From assembly GCA_027011025.1 (NCBI GenBank), contig JALVAU010000047.1, forward strand, positions 1-12,817: a stretch of 12,817 nt of DNA. Direction: 5' to 3'. The first letter of the stretch is position 1. Each line of letters starts with the position of its first letter. The translations under genes were made by a program, and so were the position numbers. Below are positions 6,991-7,311 of the stretch, piece after piece. The notes under the pieces are model-generated. The model worked only from the letters and a program-made list of their open reading frames with translations. It did not search any database and was not told where the DNA came from. The DNA comes from Campylobacteraceae bacterium. GTDB taxonomy: Bacteria > Campylobacterota > Campylobacteria > Campylobacterales > Sulfurospirillaceae.

Positions 6991-7034
6991 TCATTTCTTT
7001 TATTAAATAAAACCAATAAAATAACTATAATTTT

Positions 7035-7067
7035 ATTACTCCACCAACTAAATACACCAATTTTTGA
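7035..7067 (+). repeat. Left terminal inverted repeat of the foldback element
   Basis: This 33-nt arm pairs with 7272-7304, with mismatches only at arm positions 23 and 27. It begins ATTACTCCACCAACTAAATA. The same sequence read outward on the opposite strand encodes VFSWWSN, as does the right arm. Confidence 0.85.
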
Positions 7068-7166
7068 AAAACAGAGACTTGGTGAGATGTGAACATAAAA
7101 ATTTGTAGGACTAGCAATAGCTAATTCAAGAATTTTTCTGTTTGCAGATTGCCAAGTATCTGTTTT
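7068..7166. repeat. Arm A: nested hairpin inside the foldback element
   Basis: Three stems share one axis: 7068-7082 with 7152-7166 (14 of 15 pairs), 7092-7103 with 7131-7142 (11 of 12), and TAGC 7112-7115 with GCTA 7120-7123 around an AATA loop. The internal loops are nearly symmetric (9/9 and 8/7 nt), as in a degenerated longer palindrome or a regularly bulged RNA hairpin. Arm A plus the adjoining 9-nt mini-hairpin (108 nt) is present only on the left side of the element. Confidence 0.7.
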
Positions 7167-7175
7167 CCCTTCGGG

Positions 7176-7271
7176 TGCTTTAGTTTTGCCCATATACTTC
7201 GTTAGATTTATTCAACTTAGCTACGGCTAAGTCTTCATAAATCTGCCTCGTCTATGAACAAAACTAAAACA
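7176..7271. repeat. Arm B: three-stem inverted repeat with a TACG loop
   Basis: The stems are 7176-7193 with 7254-7271 (15 of 18), AGATTTAT 7204-7211 with ATAAATCT 7237-7244 (8 of 8), and CTTAGC 7216-7221 with GCTAAG 7226-7231 closing a TACG tetraloop. Internal loops are 10/9 and 4/5 nt. Read as RNA from the + strand, the tip is C(UACG)G, a very stable UNCG-type tetraloop. Confidence 0.7.
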
Positions 7272-7304
7272 TCAAAAGTTGATGTATTTAGTTGGTGGAG
7301 TAAT
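7272..7304 (-). repeat. Right terminal inverted repeat of the foldback element
   Basis: This 33-nt arm is complementary to 7035-7067 at 31 of 33 positions. It lies just downstream of the oxidase stop codon (7314-7312). A further small palindrome, CATCAA / TTGATG at 7270-7284, overlaps its inner end and could form in place of the long stem. Confidence 0.85.
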
Positions 7305-7311
7305 GAGAAAA

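Follow-up and report, generated by a model that had tools for sequence, protein, structure and literature searches.

A probable MITE-like, non-autonomous transposon with a roughly two-fold-symmetric hairpin core in Campylobacterota

The 270-bp palindrome at positions 7,035 to 7,304 of the stretch analysed here (the window, 12,817 nucleotides from a Campylobacteraceae bacterium, contig JALVAU010000047.1) is probably a non-autonomous, MITE-like transposon whose roughly two-fold-symmetric hairpin core is under selection. MITEs are usually regarded as remnants of insertion sequences (IS) that are defined by their ends. Here, ends and target duplication vary while a covarying internal fold persists across the order and into the Gammaproteobacteria. 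This opens a testable question, namely whether non-autonomous transposons owe their spread to a folded DNA core as well as to their ends. For annotation, the repeat family, often found at contig ends and absent from Rfam, now has a model.

The original prediction of a branched foldback is confirmed, and the fold of the element is exceptional. RNA folding gives energies of -115.5 kcal/mol on the plus strand and -116.7 kcal/mol on the minus strand (z of -15.6 and -16.4 against shuffled controls), and 0 of 200 shuffles fold equally well on each strand. The predicted 33-nt terminal inverted repeats were recovered by a repeat search, with 31 of 33 positions paired (94% complementary), and the outer stem, arm A, mini-hairpin, arm B and outer stem abut exactly, as had been described. 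The outermost bases of the outer stem form the transposon end. The parts of the window copy are:

7034..7305, unstranded: element with flanking bases, left TA at 7034-7035 and right TG at 7304-7305
7035..7067, unstranded: outer stem, left half (terminal inverted repeat; repeat search)
7068..7166, unstranded: arm A, hairpin whose GA/GA internal loop and tip are both conserved
7107..7129, unstranded: conserved arm A tip, AGGACTAGCAATAGCTAATTCAA in the window copy
7167..7175, unstranded: central mini-hairpin CCC-TTC-GGG, the centre of the two-fold symmetry
7176..7271, unstranded: arm B, related to arm A in inverted orientation
7197..7250, unstranded: conserved internal-loop motif of arm B, CTTCGTTAGATTT (7197-7209) opposite AAATCTGCCTCG (7239-7250)
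7272..7304, unstranded: outer stem, right half (repeat search)

As judged by genome comparison, the element is mobile. The idea of a non-autonomous mobile palindrome is supported by multiple copies in the host and by empty sites; a relative adds a recently amplified family and target duplications. The host genome of the window has 46 BLAST matches to the 270 bp, including cross-matches between stem halves, and 13 of 41 genomes in a first set of relatives have a match. A Campylobacteraceae MAG with a 96% identical OadA (L036) has the insertion site empty: the 270 bp are absent, and the joined window flanks align to it over 500 columns with one gap and 454 identities. Three other loci (L037, L038, L039) likewise have the site without the element, and all four retain the LDH-oadG gene order. 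In the window, the insertion point has the 3' end of the LDH gene on one side and, on the other, an AT-rich stretch adjoining oadG that the window and L036-L039 have in common. Further empty sites were found for C8 against L186 (216/220 identical), G002a against L187 (213/220), C249 against L216 (206/219) and C196 against L202 (211/220); the remaining pairs of that comparison were gapped or cut.

The single-contig genome G165 contains 22 copies of a family A (mean identity 98.5%) and 12 copies of a family B (94.8%). Perfect 4-bp repeats flank 20 of the 22 family A copies (GGGCACC..GGTGCCC), against 2.5 expected by permutation, and TA stands on both flanks in 12/12 rows of family B; one core is thus carried on different transposon ends. 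The 4-bp duplications rule out that all families duplicate only TA, and the 2-bp and 4-bp families may need different enzymes. A GAGACC-ended family with few copies may make a 5-bp duplication. In the window's own family, the base before the element is T in 17 of 19 rows and the base after it is A in 16 of 19 (one misfiled row left out); the right flank is TG in the window copy and TA in most relatives of the family. The flanking TA is the sole candidate for a duplication in this family, and because TA is self-complementary it is indistinguishable from a base of the terminal repeat. No copy out of 35 in G165 is inside a mechanical ORF (such ORFs cover 88.7%). Among 33 classified copies, tandem gaps hold 17 (expected share 0.58), convergent gaps 9 (0.14) and divergent gaps 7 (0.28), a mild excess in convergent gaps (p 0.04). 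Copies occupy intergenic, AT-rich sites. The element shares with MITEs its short length, multiple copies, terminal inverted repeats and empty sites and, in family A of G165, a target duplication. One copy (L016:1457-1727) sits at the junction of a hemE-like and a radical-SAM-like gene (named by eye), where one gene takes its stop codon, and the other part of its start codon, from the element.

Families of the element differ strongly in their outer stems (ATTACTCCACC.., AAGTACC.., TAACTGACC.., AAGGGTGCC.., ATTATGAGACC.. and TATGGGCAC..), and the end types among Campylobacterota elements include GGGCACCTCTAA and TTACNCCACC. The build is constant: elements are 265-289 bp long, mostly 266-275 (taken as the longest end-to-end repeat), with an outer stem of mostly 30-35 bp, two arms of ~94-107 and a CCC-nnn-GGG centre. 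An alignment of 40 of the 43 complete elements in 280 columns (A1) has conserved loops and variable stems. In a second alignment (A5; 26 hand-picked rows, with the structure derived from folds of the same rows), 95.7% of cells are paired and the consensus fold has 114 pairs, which makes the earlier estimate of roughly 150 of 270 bases in stems too low. Both sides have changed in 87 of these 114 pairs, including covariation in 31 of the 33 outer stem pairs across the 26 elements, and double-change cells number 586, compared with 158 for shuffled controls and 71-102 with the partner slid. For arm B alone (A3, 21 of the 40 rows of A1, type 1 only), 96.6% of cells are paired and 26 of 36 pairs have double changes; further pair types are weakly above control, the observed number being reached in 26 of 500 shuffles. 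Since the end sequences differ between families and the fold is kept by matched changes, evolution seems to preserve the folded shape itself. The original prediction had staked itself on further copies, covarying homologues and an exceptional fold, and all three were found.

A covariance model of arm B (R1) matches arm A on the opposite strand. It scores 57-72 bits where arm A has the same loop motif and a weak 42.5 bits in the window's family, where the plain complement of arm B scores 38.5 bits; with so small a gap, the homology of the arms in that family rests mainly on the tip motif, which direct alignment of arm A with the reverse complement of arm B finds in both. Arm B is related to arm A, inverted and diverged, which gives the element a rough two-fold symmetry about the mini-hairpin. 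The symmetry is also visible in the 1x1 mismatches of 94 elements (a set without L260, L270, L283, L300, lengths outside 255-300 bp and identical rows). Arm A has G-T 111 times and A-C 8 times, A-G 76 times and C-T 8 times; arm B has G-T 4 and A-C 62, A-G 2 and C-T 91; the outer stem has G-T 53 and A-C 74. The mismatches of the two arms are strand-complementary, so each DNA strand has a single hairpin with the conserved mismatch type, located in its 5' half. The same picture would be expected if both arms descended from one asymmetric hairpin.

Of 398 genomes sampled within the order, 120 match R1, and these belong to 32 of 87 genera; at most 9 candidates were scored per genome, so copy numbers from this survey are lower bounds. 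R1 is positive in 12 of 16 selected genomes, with as many as 67 matches, two of which often come from a single complete element. One copy is on a plasmid of Sulfurovum mangrovi. Relatives of full build, 264-276 bp long with one of 322, are present in Pseudoalteromonas, Vibrio and Catenovulum. These gammaproteobacterial relatives occupy 76 places in 15 PLSDB records, and both arms match R1 on opposite strands at 7 of 9 loci. A search of E. coli genomes gave no element. Among phages, four Flavobacterium phage records match over 32 nt only, and further phage searches gave no match; a viral pattern scan gave 0, and R1 on viral stretches had 0 matches in the 80 listed of 120. A plasmid record labelled Subdoligranulum variabile (OY725836.1, a Clostridia label) has a lone arm-B-type hairpin (L457:1974-2072, R1 61.9 bits) with no outer stem.

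Matching ends indicate a mobilizing enzyme in the Gammaproteobacteria only. Pseudoalteromonas sp. HL-AS2 (NZ_CP133572.1) has an 886-bp IS (L619:356-1241) ~1 kb from an element, with a transposase of the IS5 family (NF033580, PF13340, PF01609). Seven ends of four elements are identical to the ends of this IS at 15-18 of 18 positions. The two differ in that the IS encodes a transposase and has no arm hairpin core; R1 gives no hit on it at E up to 10, and therefore the core is not a simple deletion remnant of this IS. In Campylobacterota, 41 transposase loci were examined and in none is the gene bounded by element-type ends, though in two of them, L232 and L233, the gene itself could not be placed. 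Paired element ends at transposase distance were found neither on one contig in 6 genomes nor, among the matches listed, in 20 stretches. The repeated genes of G165 include IS110, IS3 and Y1 transposases. Two candidate partners were rejected: IS630 (PF13358), present in only 2 of 13 genomes, a count that excludes G165, and absent from the window's own; and PF01609 in Campylobacterota, present in 5 of 11 genomes, not in G165, with ends that are not of the element type.

We propose that a DDE transposase acting in trans moves the element by its ends. In the Pseudoalteromonas relatives this would be the IS5-family enzyme with matching ends, and the Campylobacterota copies would be moved by one or more enzymes in trans. 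The core would have a role at the DNA level, selected as folded single-stranded or cruciform DNA, with each strand presenting, in its 5' half, one conserved-type hairpin. Its likeliest role would be to bind a protein that helps capture a transposase or a replication fork, and a protein-bound core could serve different transposon ends. Five observations count against this reading: the 41 Campylobacterota loci have no transposase with matching ends, the flanking TA may be a base of the terminal repeat, upper arm A is RNA-like in its richness in G-U pairs, arm homology in the window's family depends mainly on the tip motif, and family B has 9 two-sided changes. A bolder version, which we offer tentatively as a possibility, takes the two-hairpin core to be a selfish module of structured DNA, old and shared across phyla, that is capped by varied ends, exploits whichever DDE transposase is at hand and recruits a conserved host or transposition factor through its folded single strand.

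It is unlikely that the core is instead a structured non-coding RNA or an mRNA-processing hairpin carried on a transposon, with the symmetry providing a working 5' hairpin in either orientation. Conserved loops on covarying stems would suit an RNA, as would a U-G pair within the internal-loop motif of arm B, kept in 40/40 rows of A1. Upper arm A is also rich in G-U pairs, which make up 13.7% of arm A pairs in plain folds and occur in several columns of A5. Elsewhere (outer stem, arm B and the lower stem of arm A) changes are mostly from one Watson-Crick pair to another. In 184 of 188 arms, thinned of similar rows and read on the strand of the conserved mismatches, G-U does exceed A-C, with 21 against 10 among 624 pairs in lower arm A and 8 against 3 among 546 pairs in lower arm B, but it is scarce; in the outer stem (1950 pairs in thinned rows) A-C, at 73, exceeds G-U, at 49. 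The small number of G-U pairs outside upper arm A points to DNA more than to RNA. Rfam gave 0 matches at the gathering score in the window, 20 loci and 9 gammaproteobacterial loci; models of known RNA families below that threshold were limited to mir-15, ToxI and SpF43, at no more than 22.1 bits, and were rejected. The use of tandem, convergent and divergent gaps alike also weighs against an RNA. With stems that vary by Watson-Crick swaps, few G-U pairs and no Rfam match, the earlier suggestion of a structured non-coding RNA is not supported.

The stems might also be kept perfect by mutation, through template switching in palindromes, the fold having no role. This would account for double changes that are mostly Watson-Crick and for the 9 two-sided changes, alongside 25 one-sided ones, among the 12 family B copies. 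We consider it distinctly improbable. In the 22 fresh family A copies, 20 changes are one-sided (including A-C 11 and G-T 3) and 0 are two-sided. The rate of change is lower at paired than at unpaired sites both in family A (0.41% vs 1.5%, p 2.6e-4) and in family B (1.8% vs 3.4%, p 0.016). Correction leaves the conserved loops and internal loops unexplained, and the constraint on loops and build across phyla weighs against it as well. We take the pattern in the fresh copies to reflect selection that acts on pairing, more probably in DNA than in RNA.

We give very little probability to a REPIN-like element mobilized by a hairpin-acting Y1 (RAYT) transposase, although the inverted pair of hairpins recalls one. 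REPINs or REP doublets, as treated in PMC3116915, consist of two inverted hairpin units moved by RAYTs, with compensatory changes noted in their hairpins. Y1 genes (PF01797) are present in 9 of 13 genomes, with three full-length matches in G165, and an element copy in G005 is ~120 bp from a Y1 transposase gene (L240, G005:C82). The gene is missing from the element-bearing genomes G000, G004, G030 and G033, which are drafts and may miss genes. The element, moreover, differs from REPINs in its greater length, 33-bp terminal stem, target duplications and, in one host group, IS5-type ends. Its terminal repeats and the 4-bp duplications of the fresh family fit a DDE transposase, and the matching ends in Pseudoalteromonas are those of an IS5-family IS. 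Five Campylobacterota Y1 genes of RAYT type (L241, L242, L245, L247, L248) are themselves flanked by near-perfect inverted repeats starting with (A)GGGGTCA.

That the element is an exapted leader or regulator of the oad operon, as its position upstream of oadG in the window genome had suggested, deserves almost no credence, because L036-L039 keep both gene order and AT-rich stretch without it and other copies sit in many different gaps.

The preferred reading, a MITE-like transposon with a selected core, invites comparison with other folded or palindromic DNAs. Integron attC sites work as folded single-stranded DNA whose shape is kept while the sequence varies, and their RYYYAAC and GTTRRRY boxes pair at the base of the hairpin. 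Arm B of the element has a GTTRRRY-like GTTAGAT; read by eye, this faces ATCTGCC, not RYYYAAC, within a variable stem, and an attC site was rejected. The terminal repeat of AAV also works as folded DNA, with an outer stem enclosing two side arms, and its likeness to the element is one of shape only. Bacterial MITEs covered in PMC2229807 include RUP (IS630-Spn1-like ends, TA targets), Correia/NEMIS and the Rickettsia palindromic element. Like the window element, these are short, protein-less, intergenic, presumed to be moved in trans, and have terminal inverted repeats and TA ends; they are described there as simple stem-loops of less than 200 bp (PMC2229807). The window element, unlike them, has an internal multi-hairpin core that covaries and keeps its layout from one family to the next while the ends differ. 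No description of it was found in the open-licence papers searched, including PMC2229807, PMC3733652, PMC3116915 and PMC10969869.

Several variants depart from the constant build. Solo hairpins, 61-65 bp long, are made up of nothing but the outer stem (L144:661-721, L134:688-750 and 743-807, L148:655-719, L150:626-688), and pattern pairs ~45 and ~54 bp apart in several genomes resemble them. One-arm versions of ~150 bp with perfect 40-bp inverted repeats (L116:432-580, L146:560-709) are perhaps deletion products of template switching. Lone, partnerless GGGCACCTCTAA sites of 12-24 bp (L308, L313-L325), which among the matches listed are far above a reversed-pattern control in several genomes, are perhaps short remnants after loss of the element. 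One copy (L032:1501-1793) has ~25 extra bases forming an additional hairpin near the arm A tip, and another (L035:1401-1722) is bordered on its right by part of a second such element. Alteromonadales elements (Pseudoalteromonas chromids, L584-L609), many of them ~197-214 bp long, have AACCTGA.. ends and one R1 hairpin, and represent a shorter relative with another layout.
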